Shown here: piece after piece, positions 786 to 34,279 of the stretch
How the letters are laid out: each line of letters begins with the position of its first letter
How positions within the stretch are numbered: position 1 is the stretch's first letter
Source: a virus
Reading direction: 5' to 3' (one strand)
IMG/VR virus record: IMGVR_UViG_3300023180_000198
Span: 1 to 34,279 of that record
Length of the DNA stretch: 34,279 bases
The notes under the pieces: model-generated
Told to the model about the DNA's origin: nothing
Databases searched by the model: none
What the model saw: only the letters and a program-made list of their open reading frames with translations
Made by a program: the position numbers and the translations under genes

Positions 786-3700
786 TTATGGATGATCTGC
801 ACCACTTGCCACTACCCAATTTTCAAAATTCTGTTTTCCTTTTTTGGTTTCACCCAATTGTTCTGCCTGCATTCTGGCTATATTATCCAAAATATCAGAT
901 GCTTTTTTGGTGTTTTCAGCAATTATTTCTTCTGTGGTTTTTTCTCTTTTGGTGTAATCATCCGGATTGCCAAACATAGGCATAATTTTGATATTGCTGT
1001 CTGGTTTAATTGCGCCATCAGTTTGCTGTGTTCCTGTGCCTGTACCTGTGTCTGCTTGTGTTAGACTACCTGATGCTGATGACTGATTGAAGTTGTATCC
1101 AAATCTTCCCATTTCTTCTGTGAGATACTGTCGCAACTGTTCGTTGGTAGCATCTGCTAGTGACACAATCTGATTACCATCTGGTCCAGTGAAAATTTGT
1201 CTAAAATTAGGATCAGATCTGAGTTTACCTAAATCAACTCCAGAAATATCAGTTAATTGCAATAATAGTTCTTTTTCTTTTTTCTTAAGTTCATCTAATT
1301 GTGCTTGATATATTCCAGGATCAATTTCACTCTGCGATTTTTTCAACACTCGCATATCGCCGGCTACTTTTTGTAAATTAGAATTTATTTCATCAGCTGA
1401 TTCAAAATCTTCAGCAGAGTAGCCGAGCGGAGTAACCGAAGCTACACCTCGCATTATACCAGCACCAATACCACGTTCTAATATATCTCCTAGTCCGTTG
1501 AATATTCCTCCAAATGCTCTAGTTAATGCTTCCCAAAATGTCATTCTACCAGAAAACAAATCAGCAAAGTAATTTGTGATTCCAGTAAAGGCTTCGTTTA
1601 TCATTTGAAACCCTGGCCCTTTAAGCCAATCAGCTACACTTTCAACAGCACCTGTAAATTTGTCAACTAAAAATTGAAAACCGTTTACTGTGTCTTCGTT
1701 TAAAAATGCTAACGCTACTTTGGTAAACGCTGTTCTAATTTTTGCTAGAGCTAGTGCCATTTGATTTTGTGCTCGGCCTAAAGCACCTGCGTCAATCTCG
1801 CTCATGGTTTTTACCATTTCAGCAAATGTGTTATCATCAACTGTTTCATTTAAGTTTGCCAGTCTAATCACAAACTTGGCCATTGGATCGCCACTGATTT
1901 CTAAAGCTCTTAAAAACTGTCTTGAGTTAGCATCAACTGTTCCAATGGTTTCTCTAAAATCATCTAATGCCCCTACAACATTACCTCCACGTCCGGCTTC
2001 GTATGATAAATTCTGTAAACTCTGTAATAGACCTGGAGACACTCTGGCCAAATCTTGACCAAACTGTGTAAACTGTAAACCACCTCTACCTATACCTTCA
2101 GAAAGTGCTGTTGTTAATTCTTGTCCTAGATCAGGTCCAAATGCGGCCAAGCCGGCAAATGCAGTCTGACTTGATGCTAATGCACTCTGTCTTAGGTCTG
2201 ATGGCAACATCTGTAATGCATTTGTAAATGATTCAATAGCACTGGCTTGTAAAACCATCTGTCTAATCACATCATTTGATGTATTGGTCAATCTAGTAAA
2301 TGCCTGTGTGGTTCTTAAAACTCTAACTGTGTTGTCACTAATCTGTTTGTTATTGCCTTCAAGATCAAAACCTAAAATTCGCATTGCTTCTGCTGTTTCA
2401 ACAGTGGCTTGCGACAGTTCTTGGTTACTTAAACCTAAATAGCCTTGTTCTCTTAATAGCCCTTGTGTGTTTTGAATTGCATCTGTGACAGTTTTTGTTC
2501 CATACTCGCCCATTACTGTTGCAAACTCTCCACTTAATTCTATAAACTGATCTAAACTTAAACTGGCGTCTGCGGCTCTGGCGGCAAATGTGGCAATGCC
2601 ATCAGCTACGCCGGCATTTGGTCCTGTGGCATCTGCTATTTCGTTAAAGCCTCTTCTAAAGATAGTATTCTCTAATCGGCCTAATCTCATTAAAAATTTA
2701 AATGCGGCTTTGAGTCCTGAAATTAAACCGGCAATGGCCGCTGTTGCTGGATTAAGTAATCTACCAAATTTTGCAAAGCCACCTATTACACCACCAAGTA
2801 CTCCTCCTTTGCCACCTAATGTATCCATTAGTTTGCCAATCATTCCTTTGTTGGCTTTGGTATTACTGTCTAATGCTTGTTTTACTGCTTTTAATTCTTC
2901 TTTATTATTATCATTTGATGCTTGTTGAGGTTTAGATTCTTTTTCTGTGATACCAGCAGTTTTTTCGGTTGCAACAGCAATTCTTTCTAGCATTTGAATT
3001 ATTTGTGTGTTTTCAAAACCAGATATTGCACCAGTTGGTGTTTGGGGTGTGCCGGATGATTCATCATCTTGTTTTTGAGTTAGCGGTTGATTAGATGACT
3101 GTTGATTAATTGACTGTTGTAATTTAGATGCTAGATCGTCAAATGAACTTCCAATAGCTTCTGCAAAAACCGAACCAATCTTTTCGGGTGTTTGTGCATT
3201 TATATTATTGATTAAACTTTTATTGTCCTGAACCAGTTGATCAATTGCTGACTTGTATGCTTCACTAGTAGTATCAACTGTGCTTAAAAAACTTTTATTG
3301 TCTTGGACTAACTGATCAATTGCTGACTTGTAAGTTTCGCCTGTAGAATCAACTGTGCTTAAAAAACTCTTGTTGTCTTGAACCAGTTGATCAATTGCTG
3401 ACTTGTACGCTTCGCCTGTAGAATCAACTGTGTTTAAAAAATTTTTATTATCAGAAATAAGTTGGGATATTGCTGTTTTTAAAACCGATGAGTCTGATTT
3501 GGCTTCACTGACTAGATCTTTATTCTGTGCAACTAAATTCTGTAACTCTTGTTCAATTGCAGTTGTGTCAATTTCTACTTTAGTTTCTTTGTTTTTAGTA
3601 GCACTTGTTTTTGCTTCATTTTTAAAAAAATTCAATATAGATTCAAGTGTTTTGGCTTGAGTATCAAGTTTTTTAAATCCGGATTGATTACGAGATGCTA

Positions 3701-3803
3701 ACTGATTAACAGCCTTAATCAATTCCTGAATACTGCGATCATACGCAAATTCTGGTATTGAATAATTTGTTCCGTCTATGTTTAAATCTACACGATCTGC
3801 CAT
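786..3803 (-). CDS. Putative tail tape measure protein (gp29-like role)
   Basis: A 1005-residue protein that probably sets tail length and sits inside the tail tube. The N-terminal 200 residues are polar and coiled-coil-like, and contain three near-identical 25-residue repeats (residues 125-199, core YKSAIDQLVQDNKS) plus a degenerate fourth copy before them. Residues about 330-375 are glycine/alanine-rich and hydrophobic (GGVLGGVIGGFAKFGRLL, TAAIAGLISGLKAAFKFL), as in many tape measure proteins, and the middle is long and helical. T4 gp29 is shorter (590 residues). Context supports the role: the divergent neighbour is the gp26-like gene with a frameshift signal, the usual companion of a tape measure gene. 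It starts at ATG 3803 without a visible ribosome binding site. The coding call is certain. The function is inferred; another large virion protein is the alternative. Confidence 0.7.
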   Translation of the reverse strand: MADRVDLNIDGTNYSIPEFAYDRSIQELIKAVNQLASRNQSGFKKLDTQAKTLESILNFFKNEAKTSATKNKETKVEIDTTAIEQELQNLVAQNKDLVSEAKSDSSVLKTAISQLISDNKNFLNTVDSTGEAYKSAIDQLVQDNKSFLSTVDSTGETYKSAIDQLVQDNKSFLSTVDTTSEAYKSAIDQLVQDNKSLINNINAQTPEKIGSVFAEAIGSSFDDLASKLQQSINQQSSNQPLTQKQDDESSGTPQTPTGAISGFENTQIIQMLERIAVATEKTAGITEKESKPQQASNDNNKEELKAVKQALDSNTKANKGMIGKLMDTLGGKGGVLGGVIGGFAKFGRLLNPATAAIAGLISGLKAAFKFLMRLGRLENTIFRRGFNEIADATGPNAGVADGIATFAARAADASLSLDQFIELSGEFATVMGEYGTKTVTDAIQNTQGLLREQGYLGLSNQELSQATVETAEAMRILGFDLEGNNKQISDNTVRVLRTTQAFTRLTNTSNDVIRQMVLQASAIESFTNALQMLPSDLRQSALASSQTAFAGLAAFGPDLGQELTTALSEGIGRGGLQFTQFGQDLARVSPGLLQSLQNLSYEAGRGGNVVGALDDFRETIGTVDANSRQFLRALEISGDPMAKFVIRLANLNETVDDNTFAEMVKTMSEIDAGALGRAQNQMALALAKIRTAFTKVALAFLNEDTVNGFQFLVDKFTGAVESVADWLKGPGFQMINEAFTGITNYFADLFSGRMTFWEALTRAFGGIFNGLGDILERGIGAGIMRGVASVTPLGYSAEDFESADEINSNLQKVAGDMRVLKKSQSEIDPGIYQAQLDELKKKEKELLLQLTDISGVDLGKLRSDPNFRQIFTGPDGNQIVSLADATNEQLRQYLTEEMGRFGYNFNQSSASGSLTQADTGTGTGTQQTDGAIKPDSNIKIMPMFGNPDDYTKREKTTEEIIAENTKKASDILDNIARMQAEQLGETKKGKQNFENWVVASGADHP
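3207..3431 (-). repeat. Three tandem 75-bp coding repeats in the tape measure gene
   Basis: Residues 125-149, 150-174 and 175-199 repeat a 25-residue unit with core YKSAIDQLVQDNKS; a diverged copy (TAISQLISDNKNF) precedes them. The DNA copies are also close, which suggests recent in-frame duplication and would let repeat number change the length of the protein. Confidence 0.85.
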
Positions 3804-3838
3804 GATAAATAATATTAACTACAGTGTTAATTCGCTCC

Positions 3839-3846
3839 CATAAATA
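3839..3846 (+). promoter_or_regulatory. Late-type promoter box for gp26
   Basis: CATAAATA differs at one base from the T4 late consensus TATAAATA and lies 70 bases before the gp26 start, in a 112-base divergent intergenic region. Confidence 0.45.
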
Positions 3847-3857
3847 TCTGCTACAGG

Positions 3858-3865
3858 TATTTATA
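3858..3865 (-). promoter_or_regulatory. Late-type promoter box for the tape measure gene
   Basis: The minus strand reads a perfect TATAAATA at 3865-3858, 55 bases before ATG 3803. It lies to the right of the plus-strand late box at 3839-3846, so the two promoters fire across each other. Confidence 0.6.
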
Positions 3866-3915
3866 TGTGTAATTAAGCACAATGTTAATATTTGATAAAA
3901 AGGAACAATAATAAT

Positions 3916-4752
3916 ATGTCAACAACTACACCGGGTAATCCGCTAAAAAAATATTATCGTACACCCAAACTGTATATCACATTGCCTTCTGGTGGCAAAT
4001 TCAACCAAGTAGCCGACGAAGCCATGAACGGTGAACTTCCGGTGTATGCCATGACCAGTAGAGACGAACTCTTGTTGAGAAATCCAGATGCACTGTTAAA
4101 CGGTGATGCTATAGTACAAGCAATCCAGAGCTGTGTGCCAGCAATCAAAGATCCAAAACAGTTGCCTGTTTGTGATATTGACTTGATTCTAATTGCAATC
4201 AGACAAGCCACATACGGAGAAATCATGGAAGCCAAATTGAAATCTCCACATTCAGGAAAAACTGACAGCTATGATGTAAACCTCAGTGCCATTATTGATA
4301 ACGTACAATCGTTACCTGATGAAACACATGTTACACTGAATAACAGTTGTACTGTTTATGTAAGACCGTTCAGTTACACAATTCAAACCAGACTAAATCT
4401 TTTGGCATTTGATCAAGCCAAAACAATTCGTGACGTTGGCGAAGTGTCTGAAAAATCAGCACAACAATTCAAAGCCATGTTTTTAAAACTAGCAAACACA
4501 AACATGGATGTGATTGCTGAATCTATTGTGAAAATCACAACACCCGAAGGTGACGAAATCACAGACTTGAATATGATCAAAGAATTTCTAGAAAATCTAG
4601 AAAGTGTTGACAGCAAAAAAATTGACAAAAGAATTGATGAGCTAAACAAAGCTGTGGTCAACACCAAGCAAGAATTTGCCTGCACAGAGACTGGTAAAAC
4701 GTTTGAAGCAGAAGTCAAATTGGATCCTGCTGATTTTTTCGTCAATTCTTAA
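3916..4752 (+). CDS. 26: gp26-like baseplate hub/tail assembly protein (0-frame product)
   Basis: The 278-residue 0-frame product resembles the T4 gp26 base plate protein family: an N-terminal LYITLPSGGKF segment, then an acidic helical body (MTSRDELLLRNPDALLNGDA, CDIDLILIAIRQATYGE) and an ETGKTFEAEVKLDPADFF tail. T4 gp26 is 208 residues. It probably acts in hub or tail-tube assembly. The start chosen is ATG 3916, because AAGGA (3900-3904) lies just upstream; an in-frame ATG at 3892 would put this ribosome binding site inside the gene. The frame ends at TAA 4750-4752, three codons after a perfect slippery heptamer, and a -1 frame continues to 4970, so a minority product of 351 residues is expected. 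It is divergent from the putative tape measure gene, as expected for a tail assembly chaperone locus. Confidence 0.75.
   Translation: MSTTTPGNPLKKYYRTPKLYITLPSGGKFNQVADEAMNGELPVYAMTSRDELLLRNPDALLNGDAIVQAIQSCVPAIKDPKQLPVCDIDLILIAIRQATYGEIMEAKLKSPHSGKTDSYDVNLSAIIDNVQSLPDETHVTLNNSCTVYVRPFSYTIQTRLNLLAFDQAKTIRDVGEVSEKSAQQFKAMFLKLANTNMDVIAESIVKITTPEGDEITDLNMIKEFLENLESVDSKKIDKRIDELNKAVVNTKQEFACTETGKTFEAEVKLDPADFFVNS
4734..4740 (+). promoter_or_regulatory. Programmed -1 frameshift slippery site T TTT TTC
   Basis: In the gp26 frame the codons read GAT TTT TTC, so bases 4734-4740 form a canonical X XXY YYZ heptamer. The -1 frame is closed by TGA at 4731-4733 and is open from 4734 to TAA 4968-4970, exactly spanning the slip site. 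No obvious strong stem-loop follows at 5-9 bases; a weak TGGC/GCCA stem lies at 4787-4800. Confidence 0.85.
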
Positions 4753-4970
4753 TCACATCCGAGCCGTCTGACATTGTTACCTACTTTGGCGAACTAGCCA
4801 GCGAAACCAAAGCTATTCATAGAAGTGTAGCAGAAATTTGTTGGTACATGCGAGGCTCTATCACTTATGAAGAAGCCTGGAACCTTACCTACGAAGAAAA
4901 GAAGGTAATTGAAGAATTCCTCAAAGAAAATATTGAAAAGTTTAAAGGTTCAATGACTCCGGTTGTTTAA
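4734..4970 (+). CDS. -1 frame C-terminal extension of gp26 (tail assembly chaperone GT-like)
   Basis: After slippage the next codon is CGT at 4740 and 76 residues follow before TAA 4968-4970, giving a 275+76 = 351-residue fusion. The extension reads like real protein: an acidic helical stretch (SDIVTYFGELASETKA), then ICWYMRGSITYEEAWNL and YEEKKVIEEFLKENI. It has no start codon of its own upstream; the first in-frame ATG (4848) would give only 40 residues. The stop overlaps the stop of the convergent methyltransferase gene by three bases (TTAA, 4967-4970), another sign that this frame is used. The short helical region may correspond to what marine T4-like phages carry as gp51, but T4 gp51 is much larger (249 residues), so that name is not assigned. 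The architecture matches G/GT tail assembly chaperones of lambda-like phages, by inference. Confidence 0.8.
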   Translation, partial: FFRQFLITSEPSDIVTYFGELASETKAIHRSVAEICWYMRGSITYEEAWNLTYEEKKVIEEFLKENIEKFKGSMTPVV

Positions 4971-5668
4971 TGTTTTAAAAAAACAAATTCACCTTTTGTT
5001 ACACCATGTGGATTAGTAAAAATGTTTTGTTTCAACATTTTAATATCATCAGATCTGAAATGTTCAAACATGGTTGTGGCTTTGTTGTTGTTTGTTTCTA
5101 ACACACATATTTTAAAATCAATCTCTTTCAAATCCACATTGACTTCTTCACCTTCGATATCTATCAAAATAATATCACAAGCAGGTAAGTCTTTGTAGTG
5201 TGTGTTTGGCACTTGGCGAGTTGGTTGTGTTTTGTCATCTAACAAGTAACTGAGTTCCATGGCCAACAGTTTGTCGTTGGGACCGGTATCAACTTGATCA
5301 CTTTCGATAGACGATACTGCAGAATGTATAAAAGATGTATTTTCTAAACCTAACTGTTGTTTTAAATCATTAGCAATATTGATACTTGTTTTGTCAATGT
5401 CATAGCCGGTCCATGAGTTTATTTTTTGTTTGCCAAGTAATACATCAATAAAACTTAAGAATCCAAAACTGCAACCTAATTCTATCACATCAATTGGTCG
5501 ATCGAATTTGATACTGTTGCGACAATCCCACACAATACTCTCGATAGTTCTAGATCTAACTCGTTTTTTCAGCATGGTATCATGATGATCTTGTACAAAG
5601 CCATGGCTGTGGTTTTTTAGTTTTTCAATGAATAATTGATAAAGTTGAGATTCTGTTATTTGTTTCAT
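4967..5668 (-). CDS. SAM-dependent methyltransferase, FkbM-like
   Basis: A 233-residue class I methyltransferase. Motif I is VIELGCSFGFLSF (residues 61-73), an acidic residue that could hold the ribose hydroxyls follows in WTGYDIDK (D90), and DIILIDIEGEEV near residue 165 resembles the D-x-EG-E motif of FkbM-type enzymes. The substrate is unknown; a sugar or small-molecule target is suggested by FkbM likeness only. The start is ATG 5668 without a good ribosome binding site; an AATAAATA late-like box (5685-5678) is 9 bases upstream. It is convergent with the gp26 frameshift product and overlaps it at the stop. It lies directly downstream of the structured RNA region and may be reached by that transcript. 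Confidence 0.7.
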   Translation of the reverse strand: MKQITESQLYQLFIEKLKNHSHGFVQDHHDTMLKKRVRSRTIESIVWDCRNSIKFDRPIDVIELGCSFGFLSFIDVLLGKQKINSWTGYDIDKTSINIANDLKQQLGLENTSFIHSAVSSIESDQVDTGPNDKLLAMELSYLLDDKTQPTRQVPNTHYKDLPACDIILIDIEGEEVNVDLKEIDFKICVLETNNNKATTMFEHFRSDDIKMLKQNIFTNPHGVTKGEFVFLKH

Positions 5669-23300: not shown

Positions 23301-23882
23301 GTTTCTAATATTATTGAATTAATTGTTTTACAACAACAGTATCAAGCAGATATTACCAATTGGTTTAACAACAATGGTTCTAGGGCCACGTTACCAGCAC
23401 AGCCAACCAGCGATGAAATTAGAGAAAACTTACTTGACATTGAAAAATACAAGTCAATAGGTGATCAAATTGTGTACACATCAGCAAGATTTAAATTATT
23501 ATTTGGTGATACTGCTGATTCTCAAAATCAAGCAGTGTTTAAAGTGGTTAAGATTCCTGGTGCAACATACACAGACAATCAAATCAAAACCGAAGTAGTA
23601 CAGGCCATTAGTAATTATTTTTCAATTTCAAACTGGGACTTTGGTGATACTTTTTATTTTTCTGAACTGGCCGCATATATTCATACACAGTTGAGTTCAC
23701 AAATTTCAAGTGTGGTTATTGTACCAAAAGATGCTGAAGCAAAATTTGGCGATTTATTCCAAATCAAATCAGCAAGTAATGAATTATTTTTTAGTACTGC
23801 ATCTGTTGATCAAGTACAAATTGTATCTGGACTTACAGGTGTAAACTTAAGATCAACTACAAGCACAGTTGGAGGTAGTTAA
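20352..23882 (+). CDS. 6: Baseplate wedge protein gp6
   Basis: The 1176-residue inner wedge protein that forms the continuous ring around the hub. The N-terminus is characteristic: YDTIRTAMLDYIQVNYPEDF, then SSEFIAIIDLLAFLGQSLAF and RTDLNSRENFFDTAERRESI. A C-terminal part with FYFSELAAYIHTQLSSQISS is the gp6/J-type wedge end. It is nearly twice T4 gp6 (660), with beta-rich inserts in the middle. It overlaps gp25 at the start and gp7 at the stop (TAATG at 23880-23884), so the three genes are coupled. Confidence 0.93.
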   Translation: MSQIQRQDNLFSAEDWKVVYRTFNQADFTAYDYDTIRTAMLDYIQVNYPEDFNDYIQSSEFIAIIDLLAFLGQSLAFRTDLNSRENFFDTAERRESILRLAKLINYQPKRNVPARGILKVNKIRTTEPITDSEGTALDNKNVVWNDPNNPDWYDQWLSVINTAFSSTNQFGDPYKSKSISGIETDVYNINSTTNQAVVKNFTQSIDGISTSIDVVKSDIHEDGYLYEKSPDSSESYNLLYRNDNQGFGSTDTGFFVYFKEGELQHQDYQFSTPVPNRNTNVDVTNINDTDVFVQKITSSGTPIEKWTKVPNLFGQNTIYNSLNLNTRNIFNVESRVDDQITVQFSDGNFGNAPYGKFRIWYRQSNGQGQIIRKDRIQNKEISIAYLNKEGQQFTLTLSLSLNYTVSNSQPAETDAEIKTNAPQTFYTQDRMVNAEDYNIFPLTQSNTVRKLKAINKTHIGHSRYIDINDPTGTVKSVNVYGNDGILYKDPDFSLNEEEIEGTVVDNSSYNYIINNILQPLIKKTQLKNFYYDTYKNNILDIHDSTQFEMTNASEKIVWHPFPDSGESDSGYFYLFGGSTDISNSTTIYNNPYSGLEKLGFVRPGTKLEFVDDYTSPTTVVWTTVVSVRNNGSMLSSDTTGCVQLTEQITKGLKVRTVLPSIRTTLSSSERSLIQTKMENGEDFALGYHYYASPDQNSPGVAELSIPSTGSAWYVINEDYLDSTGDFSITNNKIHNNVQSLSSDTSWLIYAEYIPAPSTQASPRYRFTVRGLDYVFESKDEVRFYYVEDYKNIDTATGKAVKDTVTLLDINKDATVLTDPANASVITDPIVFNITDNFTEQDGYVDTKKVKVSNIDSDDDGAPDNPIAHENLIDNNNYIFFNSYESYDGYTYYMLNSDVTQVANTDVANTTSGITFVTADQYFYNSDGNTATVIHEDSGNPIKREGFLNNVTYKAYLGRSFTTSDKLYFQYKHSAPRDQRIDPSVSNIIELIVLQQQYQADITNWFNNNGSRATLPAQPTSDEIRENLLDIEKYKSIGDQIVYTSARFKLLFGDTADSQNQAVFKVVKIPGATYTDNQIKTEVVQAISNYFSISNWDFGDTFYFSELAAYIHTQLSSQISSVVIVPKDAEAKFGDLFQIKSASNELFFSTASVDQVQIVSGLTGVNLRSTTSTVGGS

Positions 23883-26800
23883 TGTCATATCATGACAATA
23901 ATGACATTGAAAGCAATGTAGAATTGTCAAATGTTCAAGTTAGCAATGCTAACGTTGAAAGCAATTCAGGCATTGTCAGTACTGATTCTACAGCATTGAG
24001 TTTTTTACCGGAAGTGTTCCAGACAGAAAAGTTGAAAAACTTTTTTGACGGCACAGTTGAACAAGTTTTAAGAAAACCCAACGATGAAAAAACTACTGAA
24101 TACATTGGAAGAAAAACCGACGTTTATTTTGATAGCAGTAAAGACAATTATAAAATTGAAAAAACAAAAAATCGTCAAAACTATCAATTAGAGCCCGGCA
24201 TTGTTTTAAAAGATAACGATTCCGGTGAAACTACTAATGCTATATTTTATAATGAAATTTTAGATCATATTGATCATGAAAACGGAATAGTATCAAATCA
24301 AAATCGATTGTTTAATCAAAAGTATTATAGTTTTTCACCACCTATTGACTATGACAAATTTGTCAATTATGACAACTACTATTGGTATCCAAGTCAAGAT
24401 CTTAACGTACCATCAATTGTAGTAGACGGCACAACTGAAAACTTTACAGCAAATAACAGTCAAACCACATTCACATTAGAATCTGCTATAACAGAAACAA
24501 TAATACAAAAGTTTGTTGAAACAGATAAAAACAATTCTCTTAGTGATACTGCTAACATTGTTTTCAACTTATCAAATTATTTTAACAGCGACACTGATAT
24601 TGTTAAATTAGACGGCAGTGTTTTTACAAGTTACACAGCCAACAATACTAACAAAACAATAACGTTCAGCACCGGTGATATTGACAGCAACAGCATAGTT
24701 GAAGTTTTTTATATTACTGATGTTATAAAAGTAAATGGTATAACTGTTGACTACGACAACTATACTGCACTTGGTAAAACATTGGTATTATCAACTGCTT
24801 CTAGTGCCAACGATGTTGTTGAGATATCACACAATGTACGACCAGATCTAATATTAGGAAATAAAGAATATGTTTCTCCTAATAATATTAAGTTTAGTTC
24901 TGGCATGTTGATCAAATTTAATGATGCATATCTAATTGATATACAAGGACAGTACCAATCACAAAAGTTTTTTGTTGAAGGTGTTAACAGTGCATCAGGT
25001 ATTGAATTTGTTGAACTAAGCACCGAACCTGAATTGTTTTTAGCTGATGAGCTGTTACCATGGGATTCTGCTGATAGTATAGGACTAGCAGATGAAAATG
25101 GTGGGTGGGATTCTGCAAGATGGAGTTCTGTTTCTGATATTACTAATCCAGACTACATCACAATTGAAAGAGGAAGTCGAGATAATAATCCATGGAGTAG
25201 AACCAATGGTTGGATTCACAAAGATAATTTAACAAATTACAGAACTCTACAGCAAACAGTTAACGTGTTTCATCCATGGGATGCTGTAACTGACGATATT
25301 AGAGGTTTTGATACAGGCTTCTGGGACGTTACTACTGACACACAAGAAACCACATTTCAATTAGACAACAGCAGAAAAGGTCGTAGACCAATCATTGAAT
25401 TTGAAAAAAATATCAAATTATATAATTACGGAACACAACATGCTGTTACTGTTGATGTTTTAGCAGACGACGACACTGTTGATGACATCAACGGTTCATC
25501 TACATACACTGTTGACGGTATTAACATTGAAGATGATATGCTTATCTTGTTCCGAAACAGTGATTTTGAAACAACACTTGTGCCATGGTCCGGTGATGCA
25601 TACCCATGGGATCATGACTCTGATGCAAATGTGGCAACGGGCGGTCCTACAGGTGGTGATCAAGGCTGGGATATTACCGGTGCTGATTTTGATGTATCAT
25701 CATCAGTCTGGCAAGTAACAGGACACAGCACAGGAAATATTCAATTAGTCAAATACAACAACATTGCTACAGATTTTAATATTTCAGATGGTTCAAAAAT
25801 TACAGTAAGACTAGGAACAACATATCAAGGAAAAGAATATTACTGGGACGGCTTTAGTTGGATTGAATCTCAAGCAAAAGACAGTATTAATTCTGCACCG
25901 TTGTTTGATATCTACAACAACGCCGGCGAGCTAATCAGTGATGGTTCTCCGGAAGCTGGCAACAAAATATTTGGTTACGAAGTTGGAACAGGCAGTAACG
26001 ATCCTTATCTAAAATTTCCTTTAACTTATGAAAATTACAACACAGTGGGTGATATCAAATTTAAAAATCATTTAGCTGATGCTAATTCCACACATGGTCA
26101 TCTTAACTATAAAAAGTACATTTACAAAAACAAATTGCAAGATACTTTTTACTACACTGTAATTGTGCATCCAAGTAAACGTAATACAGGAAACAAGTAT
26201 TTTATTGACAACATTGAACAACAGAATTTGGTTTTTATCAAAGGAAACAAATATGTACTTGATCTTAGCGATTCAAGTTTTTCCGCAACTGGATTTTCTG
26301 GCTTAAATCATCAATTTGCATTGTCTGAAACACCCGATGGTAGATGGAACAGTGGAACAAGATACGACACTAATGTAAAATATTTTATTGACGATGTTCA
26401 AGTGTTGCCAGCTGATTTTTATAACAGTTTTGCTAGTGCTGAAAAAAGAAGAATTGAATTTTTACCTGATCAGGAAACACCAGATCAATTGTATTATTAT
26501 TGTGTTCATCATGAGAATATGGGTGGAGAAATAAGAACTGTTGAAAACAATATCAGTTCTTTGGTTGATGCCACTGTTATTGAATATCAAAACGAATGGG
26601 TTCTTAAAAAAGAAAAATCATATCAAAAAGTGATTCAAGAGTTTATAGTTGACAGTGAATCAAACAAAAACACATTTGTTTTAGATGCAACCATTGCCGG
26701 AGATGCAGTAGCTAAAGTATATGTCAACAACAAACAACTTGAATATAAAGTTGATTATACTATTTCAAAAAATCAAATAATAAACACAACCAATAACATA

Positions 26801-29800
26801 AGCGAAGGATCACATGTTCTTGTAAAATGGCAAACACTTGAGAATAAACAATTAAAATCAGCATATTATGAAATTCCTAAAAATCTTTCAAATAATCCAC
26901 AAAACAAATCAGTAATTTCATACTCATTTAGTGATTATCTAAGTCATTTTTATTCTACAATTTCAAATCAATCAAATTTGGTAGGATTAGCTTCTGAGAA
27001 TAACAGCTACAGAGACACTCAAAAAGATATATCACAAGGTGATGTGATTCTACAACATACTGCTCCGTTAATGAAAGCCGGAGTACATGTCAACAGCTTG
27101 TCTCGTGATTTAATTAAATCAATTAAACTTGCACAGACAGACTATACAAAATTTAAAAATCAATTTGTTACAAAAGCACAATCAATTATTGATTCGTCAG
27201 ACACTTCGGTACTGACAGATAGTGAACTAGTAGACACTATTCTAAAAGAAATGAATGCTAACAAAAAAGCCACTAGCAAGTGGTCACACAGTTTAATGTT
27301 GGCATATGGTGATACCAAGCAGACACAATCAATCACAATAGATTCAACTAATAAAACATGGAACACATTTTCTCAAGGACTTCCACAAGTGTTTGTTCAA
27401 GATGCACAAGGATTCCATCAACAATCTGGTGAACCAGGGTTGGAAATTGATTTTAGATTTGATCCTGCTACTGAAAAACAAACAAAATCTTTATACATTT
27501 ATCAAAACAACAAACAGTTGTTAATGAATCATGATTACATACTTGATAATTCAAATAGCACAACAAGTATTGTTTTTATAGCAGATATTAGACCTGACAT
27601 TGGCGATGTAATTCGTATTGAATATTTTGCAGACAAACAACCAGCATGGATTCCAGCCACTCCGGCAAAACTTGGTATGACTGGTTTGTACAAACCAGAA
27701 CAAACTGTAGATAATGGTCATGCTGAAACTACATTTTATTTTATCCAAGGCCATGACGGTAGTTTAACTTTGAACTATGGAAACGACATTGATAGAGCAT
27801 TATTAGAACTAGAAAAAAGAATATACAATGATTGTGAAAACAAATTTATTGATCCAGATTATGTTCCTGCTCTTTCATATCAAACACTAGTCAGCAACTA
27901 TTTCAATAAAAAAGATTATTCTTACAAAGATTATACAAATATCATAAGATCACAAATGCATTCATGGTTTGTTTTCAATAAAGTTGATTGGGAACTAAAT
28001 GATTCTACAAACAACAATTGGAGAGCATGGAACTGGAGCTCTGTAGCAAACTTAGAAGGTGATAGAACACCCGGTCATTGGAGAGGAATTTTTAAAAAGT
28101 TTTATGGCACAGAAAAACCTCACACTCACCCATGGGAAATGTTAGGATTCACAACAAAACCTCTTTGGTGGGATAGAAACTACAGCTGGACTAGTTTTAC
28201 AAAAAGACAAAAATTAATCAACGATATTGAAAACGGTATAATCATTGCTGGCGAAAGAGAAAACCTTTCTGACTTATCATACACAGACAAAAACAATCCG
28301 TACAGACATGAAAACTTTTCATCTTTTGTTCCTGTAGATATTAGTGGTAATGTTTTAAACCCATGGGCAATTGGTTTATGTAATAAATTACCACAAGGTA
28401 CTAACACAGAACTCAGCTGGAGAATTGGAGATTTATCACCTGCAGAATTGGCTTTTTATAGAAACAGTGCATATCCGTTTGCATTGGTATCTACTATAGC
28501 ATTAATGAAACCAGCAGAGTTTTTTGAATTATTTTTTGATACATTGAATTCTGCTACTGCAACAATAAACAAAAACAATGTGTATGATAAAAACACAAAT
28601 TTAAGACAGTCAAACAATGTCAAAGTTCATCGAGAACTTGATAATTCTTCAGTGGTAGTAGGAACTGGTTATCAGCAATACATTAGTGAAAACATTATCA
28701 ACAACTCAAGCAACGTTGAAATAAACTACGGTAATATCATAAGAAACAGTGTACCGCAGTTGATTCACAAACAGTCCGCTTTCATTGATTTTGGTTCATA
28801 CAAAGCACAAGCCGAATCATATTCACCTACTGCTCAAAGAACCAGTGTGTTTATTCCAACCGATGATATAGATCATTTGACACATGTTAGCACACCAATA
28901 CAAGGATCCAGTTATTCTGCTGTGGTCATTGAAAAAACAATACATGGTTATCGTGTCTCAGGATATGATATTGGCAAGAATTATTTTGAAAGCACAGTCA
29001 GTGACATAAATGGTTTATCAGTTAGTGTCAATATAGGTGGTACACCAATTAACATTCCATCATACACACCAAATCAAACTGTGGCGGTAGACAGTTTTGT
29101 AAGATATGAAGGTGCTGTATATAAAGCAACTCAACCACATGTGACCGGAGATATTTTTGAACCTAAATACTATCAGTCAGTAAAAAATATTCCAATAACC
29201 GGCGGTGCTTCTGCAACTTATTACAAACAAATCAAAAACAACAAAGTAGCCAAAATAGAGTATGGTACTGAATTTAAAACTATACAAGAAGTTTTTGATT
29301 TCTTAGTTAACTATGGTAGAAAACTAGAATCAGATGGTTGGATCTTTGACGAATATCTAAAAGAACAAAATGAAACAAGTAACTGGTTATATGCCGCTAA
29401 AGAATTTTTATTTTGGAGTTTAGGCTCCTGGAGTAATGGTAGTTTATTAACTTTATCTCCAAGTGCCAATAGAATTAAATTTAAACCCAAGTCAGGTGTA
29501 GTGTCATCAGTTGAAGATGTGGTTGGCAACACATATTCAATACTTGACAAAAATGGAGCTCCGGTGCCAGCAGAAGATACACAGATACTAAGAGATGGAT
29601 CGCAGATCACAATTAGACACTATAACAAAACACCTCTTTACTTTGTAAACTTATATGCAAGAGAACTTGAACATATTACTGTGTTTAACAATACTACAAC
29701 ATTTGGAGATAAAATATTTGATCCAATACTTGCTGTTAGACAACCTAGATTAAAACAGACACTGCTAAGAACTAAAGACTGGTACGGAAAATACGAAGCC

Positions 29801-32800
29801 AATGGATTCATAATTGATTCAAATGCTGGAATTATCAGTAACTTTGAAACGTCAACTAGAGACATGACTAGATATCTAGATGTTGATAAACCTATCAATA
29901 ACGAAATTCTAAACGAAACAGGATTGCACACAATAGGATATCAGAATAGAGAGAATCTAAAAAATCTTGAAATTTTAGATGAAAACCAAACCAAATTTTA
30001 TCAAGGCTTTATTAGACAAAAAGGCACAGAAAACAGCATTGACAAACTGCTAAGAAGTGATGTTATCAGTGATAGACAAGACATTAACTTGTACGAATAT
30101 TATGCTTTTAAGATTGCAGAATTTGGCGGCTCTGGTGTTAATCAGTCAATTGAGTTCAAACTAGATTCAACTAAAATCAAAAATAATCCACAGTTGATTT
30201 CATTCTTACCAACATCAGATTCAGTTGTAACAACAGATGTAGAAACTGATAATATTATTACCATTGATGTTGATGATACCGAAAACTGGATTAAAAAGCC
30301 AGACGGCGACAAAACAACAACTGATTTATTTTCCGTTAGATCAGAAAAATTTGAAATGCCAACAGCGGGTTATGTGCATGTCAAAGACACAACTTATCAA
30401 GTGTTTGACAAGAGCAATTTAAATCTGCACTACCAAACAAATGCCAACAGTAATATACAATTAGGATCAACATACTGGATTGCGTATGACAACAACAGAG
30501 ACTGGAATGTGTATAGACTCTCTAACTTGTCGCAATCAATTGACGGAATAGTATCAGCAGATCCATTAACAGTAACCGTTGATGATTCAACTGGTAACTT
30601 GATTAGCAACGTTGGCGAAACTGTAGATGTGGTTATTCCAAAACACACTGATTCAAACAGCAATGTTGTACTTGATATGGTGCACGGGTCTAAAACACTA
30701 ACACTGGTAGAATCAGATCAAACAATATCAAAAACATTCGCACTAACTGACCTGTTAGGTTCTGGAGCAGATGTTACAGCATCAGGCACAGCAGATCAAG
30801 TACAGAAATTTATAGTCAAATCTGGTGGTACAGGATATTCAGCAGGTGACACTGTAACTGTTGCAGGTTCTGGAGGATCAAGTGCTGTTGGTAATGTAGC
30901 CACTGTTGATGCCAACACTGGTGCTATCACAAGCATAACATTATCTTCCGGAGGTGCAGGTTTTTATGCTGAACCAACAGATATATCAATACTAACAGGC
31001 AATACTGCTTCGGCGGGTGCAAATGCAGTTATTAGATTAAAAGGCAACAACCCAACTTATTACGCAGTTGGTACATTGGCAGATACCAACACATTTGTAA
31101 ACGGAGAAACTGTAACTGACAATCTTGGTAACACTGCTACACTACTTAATACATTTACTGGTGCAGGAATTACTCACTTGTTATTAACTAATGAATCAGG
31201 ATCATCATTTGGCACAGCAACATACATTGCAGGTGCAACAGCAAATCTTTCAACAATTTCAAACGTAACAACACTACCAAGTGCAAATATTTCTGATACA
31301 GATTATGATGATTTTGATAAGACTTTTGGTGGATTGCTGTCACTACAAGTCAATGCAGGAGGTTCAGGATATATCAATCCAAATGTAGAATTTAACGACA
31401 CTGCAAATTCAAATGTTGCCGGCGAAGTAATCACTGCAAACGGTTCAGTCACAAGTGCTTATATAACAGATCCAGGATACGGGTTCCAACAAGTGCTTGG
31501 CACAGAAGCAACACTGGCCGTAGAAGTGCTCGACAGAGTTGACAGTGCAAATGCAGTCACACTTGATTTTGATGACAAACTGATCAAGTGTTCAACTATC
31601 AGCAACATTGCAGTCACAGTAAACAATGAGTTTGATACAACCAACAACGGTAGTGCTAGAATCAATGTCACTGACAGTGCCAATATTACCTTTGCTTCCA
31701 ACATAGATTTAACTGCAAACACAGTTACTACAGCTCTGTCAAATAACTTAACAGACAGATCAACATCAAATGTACAACTAGAATTTTATTTAGATGCTGG
31801 CACATCTGCTTCAGAAGGAAATGTCACAGTATCTTTGAATTACAAAAAAATAACTTATAGTGTTGCTGATACTACAGGTAACTCTGCTACAGCAAACACA
31901 GTAGTTGACAGTTATTTCAACAGCAGTTCACATCCTTTGTATTTCTATAAAGATGTAAGATTAGCTTCAAGAAACAATGGCATAGATCAAAGCAATGTAG
32001 GATCAAATCTGTCCGCCACAGTCAATGATTTTGTGTCTAATGTGTGTTCAGACATTACATTTATTGAAGGTGATAAAATTTGGTTAGACAATGGTGGCAA
32101 TAACAACTGGTATACATTAACAATGACATCTAATGCTAGTGTTAAAACTGCATATGACAATCTGGCAACAAATGCCAATATAGAAACAAGTATAACCGTT
32201 GGCAGTGACTATTGGATTATCCATTCAGATGTCAATTACGATTCGATTGAATCTTCTGTGTTTGAATCAACAGCAAGAACAAACAAAAACAAATCACAGA
32301 TTAACTCAAACTTATTTTACAGATCAAAAGTGGTTGATGTTGAAAACAGATCAAGACAAACTGATTTTGAAATTTGGGATCCTATTAAAAGATTATTTCC
32401 AGGTGAAGCAGAAAGAGAAATAAAATTTATCAGCTCAGTTGACCCAGCAGTTTATACTAACTCTTCAGACCCAAATAGAGATGTTGATGTCACAGCTTGG
32501 GGTCAAGAAAATGTAGGCAGAGTATGGTGGAACACATCAACTGTCAAATACCTTGAATATGAAAATTACAACTTAGATTACAAACAACAGTATTGGGGTA
32601 AAACATTCCCAGGTTCAACATTTGGTGTTTACGAATGGACTGAAAGTACACAAACACCTGAAAAGTATACTGGTTCTGGTACACCTATCAACAACACAGA
32701 CTACAGCACAGTTTCAACTACCAACAAACAAAATATCACAACTGTAAAATACTATTTTTGGGTCAAAAACAGTGATATAGTTCCTAATGTAAATTGGAGA

Positions 32801-34279
32801 TCACTGACAACAACAGCCATAGCAAGACTACTTAAAAATCCAACTTCATATGGTGTTGATTGGTATGCTCCGGTAGACACTAATAGTTTATTGGTAGCAA
32901 ACTCAAGTCGTTACATTGGTGATCAATCTAATTTTAGATTAAACTACAAAACCAAAGACGTAGATATTCCAACAAACTCGCAATGGTTAATGATCAAACA
33001 AAATGATCCTAACAAAAAAGTCGATGAAAGAATATGGAACAAGTTCACAGACAGTTTAAGTGGTCAAAACAGTCAAGGATTGGCTGTGCCTGATGTTTCT
33101 AATCTAAGTGAATTAAATCGTTATGGTAACAGTCTAAGACCTAGACAGTCTTGGTTTAAAGATGTGCTTGAAGCACGTAAAAACTTTGTTTATACTGCAA
33201 ACAAGATACTTGCTAATATTAATTTAGATGTTGATTTGCCTGAATGGCAACAAACTGTAAGCACCGAATTAAGTTTTAATAAAATTGATTATTTTGCTTC
33301 TGGCTATAACAGTTCAATTGTGATTGACAGAGAAGTTGATACTTACAACGACATGCTGAGTGCTACATTAACACCAGGTGAAGTAATCAAAGTTGATCTA
33401 GATTACAACAACAAGTGGGCCATTTACATCTATGGTAATAGACAACAGATACTTGGTACTGATGTTGCTACCTCTGGCAATGAACTAGTAAGAATAGCAA
33501 ACCAAACAGCAACAGTCGAACTAAATTCAACTTTTTACACCAGCACAGATTCAAATGTACAAGCTGAAATTAGAGAAATAATGTCTACTATGTACAGCTA
33601 TATTTTTGCAGGTAGTAGAAATGTGTATCTTAACACACTGCTGTTTAGTGGTATCAATACTGTGTTTTCACAACACAATGAAATTGATTGGCTAATTAAA
33701 ACCACATATTTTGATGTGGTACAAGAAGATCAAAGTTTATCACAACTGGTAAGTTATCAACCAGATACATTTACCTATCTAAAAGATTATATAAACGAAG
33801 CAAAACCATATCACAGTAAACTGATTAATTACTTGAGCAAAAAGACTACACCGGTTGAATACGCAAATACTTCTGTAGTTGATACCTTGTCGTTTGCTCA
33901 AACATTGGTTTTTGATAGAACTACTAAAGATATAGAATTACTTTCTAACACTGCGGCCACAGATGCTGATCAATTGTTGGAATTAAAAAATAAATCTCAA
34001 TTGACATATCCACCCGACAACAGTGCTATTGAAAGAATTGGAAAATATTTCTATGCAGATGAATTAAATGCATTAGATACTTCAAACACATCTGCTGTTG
34101 AGAGTTTTATGAGTATGTTAAGAGATAAAATTGCACCATTTAGAGATGCAGACTTTGATGCTAACACATTTGTAACTACCGGTAACCCAGAATGGTATCA
34201 GTCACTGTTACAATCAACTAACTCATGGCAAGCAAATGTAAACTACACACCAAACGTAGAAATTGACAGTAACTCGTTG
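23882..34279 (+). CDS. 7: Giant baseplate wedge initiator, gp7-like, C-terminus beyond the window
   Basis: The frame opens at ATG 23882 (overlapping the gp6 stop) and, at all positions checked, stays open to the last base: 3466 codons without a stop, more than three times T4 gp7 (1032). The N-terminus (DSTALSFLPEVFQTEKLKNF; NRLFNQKYYSFSPPIDYDKF; NYDNYYWYPSQD) and repeated PWD/W-rich segments resemble marine T4-like gp7. A recurring style of beta-domain is visible: N-terminal scaffold, a cupredoxin-like insert near residues 781-885, a central region with repeated GWIF/AAKEFLFW segments, a glycine-rich GGxGY insert near 2314-2500, and a C-terminal region with PYHSKLI. It would form the wedge arms from which fibres hang. 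Naming as gp7 comes from position after gp6. Confidence 0.85.
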   Translation, partial: MSYHDNNDIESNVELSNVQVSNANVESNSGIVSTDSTALSFLPEVFQTEKLKNFFDGTVEQVLRKPNDEKTTEYIGRKTDVYFDSSKDNYKIEKTKNRQNYQLEPGIVLKDNDSGETTNAIFYNEILDHIDHENGIVSNQNRLFNQKYYSFSPPIDYDKFVNYDNYYWYPSQDLNVPSIVVDGTTENFTANNSQTTFTLESAITETIIQKFVETDKNNSLSDTANIVFNLSNYFNSDTDIVKLDGSVFTSYTANNTNKTITFSTGDIDSNSIVEVFYITDVIKVNGITVDYDNYTALGKTLVLSTASSANDVVEISHNVRPDLILGNKEYVSPNNIKFSSGMLIKFNDAYLIDIQGQYQSQKFFVEGVNSASGIEFVELSTEPELFLADELLPWDSADSIGLADENGGWDSARWSSVSDITNPDYITIERGSRDNNPWSRTNGWIHKDNLTNYRTLQQTVNVFHPWDAVTDDIRGFDTGFWDVTTDTQETTFQLDNSRKGRRPIIEFEKNIKLYNYGTQHAVTVDVLADDDTVDDINGSSTYTVDGINIEDDMLILFRNSDFETTLVPWSGDAYPWDHDSDANVATGGPTGGDQGWDITGADFDVSSSVWQVTGHSTGNIQLVKYNNIATDFNISDGSKITVRLGTTYQGKEYYWDGFSWIESQAKDSINSAPLFDIYNNAGELISDGSPEAGNKIFGYEVGTGSNDPYLKFPLTYENYNTVGDIKFKNHLADANSTHGHLNYKKYIYKNKLQDTFYYTVIVHPSKRNTGNKYFIDNIEQQNLVFIKGNKYVLDLSDSSFSATGFSGLNHQFALSETPDGRWNSGTRYDTNVKYFIDDVQVLPADFYNSFASAEKRRIEFLPDQETPDQLYYYCVHHENMGGEIRTVENNISSLVDATVIEYQNEWVLKKEKSYQKVIQEFIVDSESNKNTFVLDATIAGDAVAKVYVNNKQLEYKVDYTISKNQIINTTNNISEGSHVLVKWQTLENKQLKSAYYEIPKNLSNNPQNKSVISYSFSDYLSHFYSTISNQSNLVGLASENNSYRDTQKDISQGDVILQHTAPLMKAGVHVNSLSRDLIKSIKLAQTDYTKFKNQFVTKAQSIIDSSDTSVLTDSELVDTILKEMNANKKATSKWSHSLMLAYGDTKQTQSITIDSTNKTWNTFSQGLPQVFVQDAQGFHQQSGEPGLEIDFRFDPATEKQTKSLYIYQNNKQLLMNHDYILDNSNSTTSIVFIADIRPDIGDVIRIEYFADKQPAWIPATPAKLGMTGLYKPEQTVDNGHAETTFYFIQGHDGSLTLNYGNDIDRALLELEKRIYNDCENKFIDPDYVPALSYQTLVSNYFNKKDYSYKDYTNIIRSQMHSWFVFNKVDWELNDSTNNNWRAWNWSSVANLEGDRTPGHWRGIFKKFYGTEKPHTHPWEMLGFTTKPLWWDRNYSWTSFTKRQKLINDIENGIIIAGERENLSDLSYTDKNNPYRHENFSSFVPVDISGNVLNPWAIGLCNKLPQGTNTELSWRIGDLSPAELAFYRNSAYPFALVSTIALMKPAEFFELFFDTLNSATATINKNNVYDKNTNLRQSNNVKVHRELDNSSVVVGTGYQQYISENIINNSSNVEINYGNIIRNSVPQLIHKQSAFIDFGSYKAQAESYSPTAQRTSVFIPTDDIDHLTHVSTPIQGSSYSAVVIEKTIHGYRVSGYDIGKNYFESTVSDINGLSVSVNIGGTPINIPSYTPNQTVAVDSFVRYEGAVYKATQPHVTGDIFEPKYYQSVKNIPITGGASATYYKQIKNNKVAKIEYGTEFKTIQEVFDFLVNYGRKLESDGWIFDEYLKEQNETSNWLYAAKEFLFWSLGSWSNGSLLTLSPSANRIKFKPKSGVVSSVEDVVGNTYSILDKNGAPVPAEDTQILRDGSQITIRHYNKTPLYFVNLYARELEHITVFNNTTTFGDKIFDPILAVRQPRLKQTLLRTKDWYGKYEANGFIIDSNAGIISNFETSTRDMTRYLDVDKPINNEILNETGLHTIGYQNRENLKNLEILDENQTKFYQGFIRQKGTENSIDKLLRSDVISDRQDINLYEYYAFKIAEFGGSGVNQSIEFKLDSTKIKNNPQLISFLPTSDSVVTTDVETDNIITIDVDDTENWIKKPDGDKTTTDLFSVRSEKFEMPTAGYVHVKDTTYQVFDKSNLNLHYQTNANSNIQLGSTYWIAYDNNRDWNVYRLSNLSQSIDGIVSADPLTVTVDDSTGNLISNVGETVDVVIPKHTDSNSNVVLDMVHGSKTLTLVESDQTISKTFALTDLLGSGADVTASGTADQVQKFIVKSGGTGYSAGDTVTVAGSGGSSAVGNVATVDANTGAITSITLSSGGAGFYAEPTDISILTGNTASAGANAVIRLKGNNPTYYAVGTLADTNTFVNGETVTDNLGNTATLLNTFTGAGITHLLLTNESGSSFGTATYIAGATANLSTISNVTTLPSANISDTDYDDFDKTFGGLLSLQVNAGGSGYINPNVEFNDTANSNVAGEVITANGSVTSAYITDPGYGFQQVLGTEATLAVEVLDRVDSANAVTLDFDDKLIKCSTISNIAVTVNNEFDTTNNGSARINVTDSANITFASNIDLTANTVTTALSNNLTDRSTSNVQLEFYLDAGTSASEGNVTVSLNYKKITYSVADTTGNSATANTVVDSYFNSSSHPLYFYKDVRLASRNNGIDQSNVGSNLSATVNDFVSNVCSDITFIEGDKIWLDNGGNNNWYTLTMTSNASVKTAYDNLATNANIETSITVGSDYWIIHSDVNYDSIESSVFESTARTNKNKSQINSNLFYRSKVVDVENRSRQTDFEIWDPIKRLFPGEAEREIKFISSVDPAVYTNSSDPNRDVDVTAWGQENVGRVWWNTSTVKYLEYENYNLDYKQQYWGKTFPGSTFGVYEWTESTQTPEKYTGSGTPINNTDYSTVSTTNKQNITTVKYYFWVKNSDIVPNVNWRSLTTTAIARLLKNPTSYGVDWYAPVDTNSLLVANSSRYIGDQSNFRLNYKTKDVDIPTNSQWLMIKQNDPNKKVDERIWNKFTDSLSGQNSQGLAVPDVSNLSELNRYGNSLRPRQSWFKDVLEARKNFVYTANKILANINLDVDLPEWQQTVSTELSFNKIDYFASGYNSSIVIDREVDTYNDMLSATLTPGEVIKVDLDYNNKWAIYIYGNRQQILGTDVATSGNELVRIANQTATVELNSTFYTSTDSNVQAEIREIMSTMYSYIFAGSRNVYLNTLLFSGINTVFSQHNEIDWLIKTTYFDVVQEDQSLSQLVSYQPDTFTYLKDYINEAKPYHSKLINYLSKKTTPVEYANTSVVDTLSFAQTLVFDRTTKDIELLSNTAATDADQLLELKNKSQLTYPPDNSAIERIGKYFYADELNALDTSNTSAVESFMSMLRDKIAPFRDADFDANTFVTTGNPEWYQSLLQSTNSWQANVNYTPNVEIDSNSL
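26222..26536 (+). other. Cupredoxin-like domain within the gp7-like protein
   Basis: Residues about 781-885 follow the pattern of small blue-copper-like domains: FIKGNKYVLDLSDSSF, then LNHQFALSETPDGRW with H810, then LYYYCVHHENMGGE with C874, H877 and M880. A lone His plus C-x2-H-x2-M is the type 1 copper ligand set. Similar segments occur in marine phage virion proteins. Copper binding is inferred. Confidence 0.6.
30821..31500 (+). other. Glycine-rich beta-repeat insert in the gp7-like protein
   Basis: Residues about 2314-2540 contain repeated GGxG(Y/F) units: SGGTGYSAGDTVTVAGSGG, SSGGAGFYAEPTDI, AGGSGYINPNVEF and DPGYGF, with Ala/Thr/Val-rich strands between. Such repeats are common in tail fibre and baseplate adhesins. 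The composition (Gly, Ala, Thr) differs from the Asn/Tyr/Lys-rich parts on both sides, which suggests a shuffled module. Confidence 0.6.

Follow-up and report, generated by a model that had tools for sequence, protein, structure and literature searches.

In phage lambda, a short and a long tail assembly chaperone, G and GT, are made from one mRNA by −1 frameshifting, on a slippery sequence other than the one described here, and their gene lies beside the tape measure gene, upstream of it and on the same strand. According to the G/GT model, many short and few long chaperones coat the tape measure protein, and the C-terminal domain of the long form recruits tube subunits. With regard to T4-like phages, Vladimirov, Gautam and Davidson (Virology 2022, 566:9-15) reportedly identified the tail assembly chaperone (TAC) genes, which correspond to genes 26 and 51 in T4, and are said to have found that a poly-T −1 frameshift yields the long form, TAC-NC, in several T4-like groups. 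In passages of later papers, this work is credited with the poly-T slippery sites in the genes for the short form, TAC-N, of T4-like phages (PMC12846349) and with the observation that some T4-like phages have instead a short gene and a fused long gene (PMC10885494); passages in PMC12671138 and PMC11131426 cite it as well. For the myovirus TAC of Vandenendeviridae and Andersonviridae, a passage of PMC12846349 describes a conserved −1 frameshift at poly-T GTTTTT, the chaperone region immediately preceding the tape measure gene.

The locus analysed here belongs to a viral DNA of 34,279 nucleotides (IMG/VR record IMGVR_UViG_3300023180_000198), the whole of which is hereafter called the window. Its features are as follows:

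786..3803, minus strand: putative tape measure protein gene (named by its relatives), 1005 aa, head-to-head with the chaperone gene
3804..3915, no strand: intergenic region, in which a word search places TATAAATA at 3858-3865 of the minus strand
3916..4752, plus strand: gp26-like gene, short form (TAC-N), 278 aa, with PF12322 and phrog_150 matches and an AlphaFold2 model
3916..4970, plus strand: predicted frameshifted long form (TAC-NC), 351 aa, the two frames joined at the heptamer
4734..4740, plus strand: slippery heptamer T TTT TTC, of the X XXY YYZ pattern found in the loci of relatives
4734..4970, plus strand: −1 frame of 78 codons, predicted to encode TAC-C, the C-terminal domain of the long form, stop TAA at 4968-4970

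The 0 frame extends from ATG at 3916 to TAA at 4750-4752 and ends with CCT GCT GAT TTT TTC GTC AAT TCT TAA, the heptamer at 4734-4740 lying in frame with three sense codons between it and the stop. A TGA at 4731-4733 blocks the −1 frame, which is then open from 4734 onward; 76 of its 78 codons lie beyond the two Phe, and its stop overlaps the end of a convergent gene (4967-5668). These are the elements reported in the preliminary description of this DNA, namely the GAT TTT TTC heptamer three codons before the gp26 stop and a TGA-blocked −1 frame of 76 residues opening at the heptamer and ending within the convergent gene, and all of them were found.

The 0-frame protein matches PF12322, T4_baseplate (E 3.1e-18, 66.7 bits for a cut-off of 24.5, residues 46-275), and the baseplate hub family phrog_150 (E 6.3e-22). 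AlphaFold2 models it with a mean pLDDT of 90.2 and a pTM of 0.85, and the C-domain as helical with a mean pLDDT of 86.3. With the TAC-N model, Foldseek placed the HK97 tail assembly chaperone 2ob9 at rank 1, at a non-significant level (E 0.22, probability 0.63); in a second structural comparison, the same structure ranked sixth (Z 5.5, rmsd 5.2, 103 of 107 residues) and shared its score with unrelated helical matches. In a viral model library, 63 models match the N-domain at E up to 0.001, the top named ones being T4-like baseplate hub and baseplate proteins. Among solved structures, a sequence search with the N-domain returned nothing credible (best E 0.089), nor did a comparison with the C-domain model (best E 2.7), and no Pfam or PHROGs family matched the C-domain at E up to 1. 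Neither a tRNA nor an Rfam family at gathering score was found in the window.

Relatives were collected in two ways. A tblastn search with the joined product matched 63 phage records, nine of which were examined: Callisto and Paride (Pseudomonas), Phosso (Sinorhizobium), Atu_ph07 (Agrobacterium), CBB, Salicola phage SCTP-2, pEa_SNUABM_12, 121Q and Munch. T TTT TTC with the −1 frame is present in all nine. IMG/VR was scanned by means of an alignment of the 0-frame protein, with DNA patterns taken from two regions that lie outside the junction; this yielded 110 relatives, of which 80 were kept, against one near-identical contig only in an earlier single-sequence scan. An in-frame X XXY YYZ heptamer with an open −1 frame occurs in 79 of the 80 loci, with the 0-frame stop following 3 to 33 bases later, the 80th (L086) being cut by the contig end. 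The 79 loci are partly redundant, since L013 is nearly identical to the window and L028 is Atu_ph07 again, and two of them (L034 and L047) have a −1 frame truncated where the contig stops. The expectation that relatives would share T TTT TTC and the −1 frame is thus borne out in both collections.

When all rows are taken together (scan, nine records and window, with the redundancy just mentioned), the heptamer is found in 89 of 90, as TTTTTTC in 78, TTTTTTT in 8 and AAATTTT in 3. Clustering of the 87 fusions with a complete −1 frame, which leaves out L086, L034 and L047, gave 53 clusters at 90% identity (48 TTTTTTC, 4 TTTTTTT, 1 AAATTTT) and 28 at 50% identity (25 T TTT TTC, 2 T TTT TTT, 1 A AAT TTT). 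In the eight T TTT TTT and three A AAT TTT loci, the bases have changed and the slippery pattern is retained. In the 27 T-run clusters, the two Phe are preceded by a codon for Asp, Ser, Asn, His or Thr that always ends in T, and the remaining cluster reads GTA AAT TTT. With the amino acids of the site and the codon usage of each gene taken as fixed, the chances of X XXY YYZ over the 28 clusters multiply to 10^-15.5, a value that is too small in that it ignores their shared ancestry. Of the 14,530 codon positions elsewhere in the same 0 frames, 3 have TTTTTTY or AAATTTT in frame, and one out of seven other Phe-Phe pairs is slippery. The combination of heptamer and open −1 frame is neither chance nor a sequencing slip, and the predicted site for programmed −1 frameshifting is strongly conserved.

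The region following the site was surveyed by folding 50-base stretches at 14 positions in 53 representatives. The stretch beginning 4 bases after the heptamer has both the lowest mean energy (−10.4 kcal/mol, versus −4.9 to −9.3 elsewhere) and the lowest mean z (−1.16 versus −0.57 to +0.23), and z falls under −2 there in 13 of the 53, versus 1 to 8 at the other positions. Further, 24 of the 53 show z under −1.5 over the 70 bases from the heptamer. In the window itself, no stable structure follows the site as far as simple hairpins are concerned (z +0.93 over 50 bases, −0.01 over 70 bases). A signal for the stimulatory structure envisaged in the preliminary description is therefore partly present across the family but absent from the window, at least as a simple hairpin. 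Family members with and without predicted RNA structure at the same slippery site provide a natural comparison for the tuning of slippage.

This survey also bears on the alternative that survives best, although we rate it as very improbable: that RNA polymerase slips on the T run, the resulting mixed mRNAs giving rise to the long form. A run of six or more T is indeed found in 86 of the 89 heptamer loci; however, the A AAT TTT type (3 loci, one of the 28 clusters) preserves slippage on tandem codons with a shorter run, and a structure signal downstream of the site fits slippage by ribosomes.

The −1 frame was compared in 18 pairs of loci of equal length, 62-97% identical, with each locus used once, the stretch compared beginning 9 bases past the first base of the heptamer and partly overlapping the 0 frame in some loci. 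Changes at codon positions 1, 2 and 3 number 159, 71 and 373, and dN/dS lies between 0.05 and 0.32 in 17 of the 18 pairs, i.e., those in which it is defined; these counts include near-repeats, the pairs L079/L084 and L048/L052 resembling L080/L087 and L049/L050, respectively. Such a substitution pattern indicates that the −1 frame is evolving as protein, under purifying selection.

Whether this protein could be initiated on its own depends on its start codons. The window has ATG at codons 38 and 73 only, with no SD-like word upstream of either, which agrees with the earlier statement that the frame lacks a usable start, and the 75 codons of the Callisto frame (L003) contain no ATG, GTG or TTG. 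A separate gene with its own start, which we consider slightly less probable still than polymerase slippage, matches the database view, given that, of the nine records (L003-L011), seven annotate downstream an ORF with its own start, coding for a hypothetical protein, and two leave this frame unannotated. Separate initiation may occur in some relatives, since a start-type codon lies within the first 15 codons in 26 of the 53 representatives, and one with an SD-like word within 25 codons in three (L028, L006 and L008). Against this, the first start in the window comes only at codon 38, and start positions shift between relatives, whereas the heptamer and the opening of the frame at or before it are constant. 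It is the conserved heptamer and phase, rather than start codons, that argue for frameshifting.

A sequencing error or a broken gene, conceivable because homopolymers are error-prone, is made untenable by conservation: a separate 38-kb contig (L002/L013) has the unchanged heptamer with two base differences only over 1401 bases, both synonymous and within gp26, the run is common to isolates and metagenome contigs, and the −1 frame is constrained.

We are thus highly confident that the gene encodes the tail assembly chaperone of a T4-related myovirus, expressed as TAC-N and TAC-NC via −1 frameshifting on T TTT TTC. As judged from sequence comparison, the locus combines these features of frameshifted chaperones, namely, a −1 frame devoid of a start at the junction, a conserved slippery site, and adjacency to a tape measure gene, and the longer protein is a predicted product, probably arising from ribosomes that slip back one base. 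Most ribosomes would stop at 4752, yielding TAC-N, the short form. On T TTT TTC, where tRNA-Phe occupies TTT and TTC, a minority would move back by one base, evade the stop and append the helical TAC-C to form TAC-NC. By analogy with lambda G/GT, many TAC-N and few TAC-NC may coat the tape measure protein, and TAC-C may recruit tail tube subunits. In the nine records, a short ORF that was hypothetical (7) or unannotated (2) now receives a name.

Upstream of the chaperone gene, the 1005-aa ORF of the minus strand has homologues in the equivalent position in relatives (best E 2e-39), and 58 of 71 collected ORFs, that of the window included, form one similarity cluster. The scanned ORFs of seven relatives include three with hits to tape measure PHROGs (best E between 2e-6 and 2e-4) and four that reach no tape measure family, the best match of L008 being phrog_14121, a virion structural protein; none of the seven matches the T4 gp29 family, and two contain lysin-like segments. 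The pEa_SNUABM_12 record annotates its own ORF as a putative tape measure protein. The window's ORF shows no tape measure family in Pfam and PHROGs. By its relatives, it can be taken as the tape measure gene, which upholds the adjacency noted in the preliminary description. This gene harbours a 75-bp tandem repeat at 3214-3449 on the minus strand, with 3.1 copies of 25 residues each, which might act as a tail-length module. In one relative, the ORF in tape measure position at L085:170-3421 (minus strand) carries an endolysin-like segment (phrog_3513, E 1.9e-32). Also in the window, an open frame of at least 3466 aa (23882-34279, plus strand) runs off the end, directly following a 1176-aa protein that matches a baseplate wedge family.

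After exclusion of 14 of the 90 rows, which have less than 1500 bases upstream or an incomplete −1 frame, 76 loci remain; in 71 of these (42 of 46 representatives), a long divergent ORF and the chaperone gene are placed head-to-head. The five loci not scored as divergent are L005 and L028 (both Atu_ph07); L053 and L082, in these two of which the long minus frame ends further upstream; and L039, in which it is present (1057-3399) and was missed through a too-early call of the chaperone start. In the 122 bases before the chaperone start as called, 51 representatives were searched for TATAAATA, which we take to be the T4 late promoter core, with up to one mismatch allowed. The plus strand contains such a word in 37 of the 51, where mononucleotide shuffles predict 14.9, and the minus strand in 36 of them, where the shuffles predict 17.8. 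The exact word is not enriched over the whole window (3 found, 3.8 expected). We tentatively raise the possibility, ourselves leaning somewhat against it, that the tape measure and chaperone genes of a large T4-related group, in which jumbo phages are frequent, are expressed divergently from a single short stretch carrying back-to-back T4-type late promoters, these promoters being deduced from the word count only. If true, the divergent partners would be co-timed yet translated from separate mRNAs, unlike in the lambda-type same-strand order. A title-level literature search returned no title on the divergent arrangement or on a stem-loop after the site for this lineage. The arrangement and the RNA-structure signal, seen in the family and not in the window, are the less expected features, for which we claim no priority.

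With regard to better-known T4-like phages, we compared seven records of our own selection, T4 and six others. All six non-T4 records display the same architecture, with TTTTTTC in P-SSM2, S-PM2, KVP40 and phiW-14, and TTTTTTT in HTVC008M and phiM12. T4 is the only one of the seven without the site, the last 30 codons of its genes 26 and 51 containing no in-frame X XXY YYZ; its gp26 and gp51 both match PF12322. In profile comparisons, for which E-values refer to single hhalign comparisons, gp51 (the profile of which includes L107 as a 120-aa truncated read-out) aligns along its own length to the fused T4-like TAC-NC (probability 99.1%, E 8e-19), while the T4-like −1-frame domain matches the end of gp51 (94%, E 1e-7). 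The fused profile of the window family aligns with the fused T4-like profile (99.1%, E 8e-19) with the junction FFR in register. Taken alone, the C-domain of the window family is weakly similar to T4-like C-domains (35%, E 4e-4) and non-significantly to the end of T4 gp51 (3.8%).

The suggestion that the gp26 region of T4-like phages operates as a frameshifted chaperone gene is thus supported, with the site in all six non-T4 records, but it is not new according to the passages citing Vladimirov et al. 2022, with which the present results are in agreement. Frameshifted TAC genes of T4-like phages are already known, and the window is a further member, which extends the evidence to diverse uncultivated and jumbo phages that the 2022 paper may already cover. 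Compared with lambda G/GT, where the chaperone and tape measure genes follow each other on the same strand, the two genes of the window stand head-to-head. The T4-like TAC genes of Vladimirov et al. resemble it in having a poly-T −1 frameshift within the TAC-N gene, whereas T4 itself has two separate genes, 26 and 51, instead of the heptamer. The TAC of Vandenendeviridae and Andersonviridae likewise shares a poly-T −1 site with the window, and differs from it in belonging to other phage families and in gene order.
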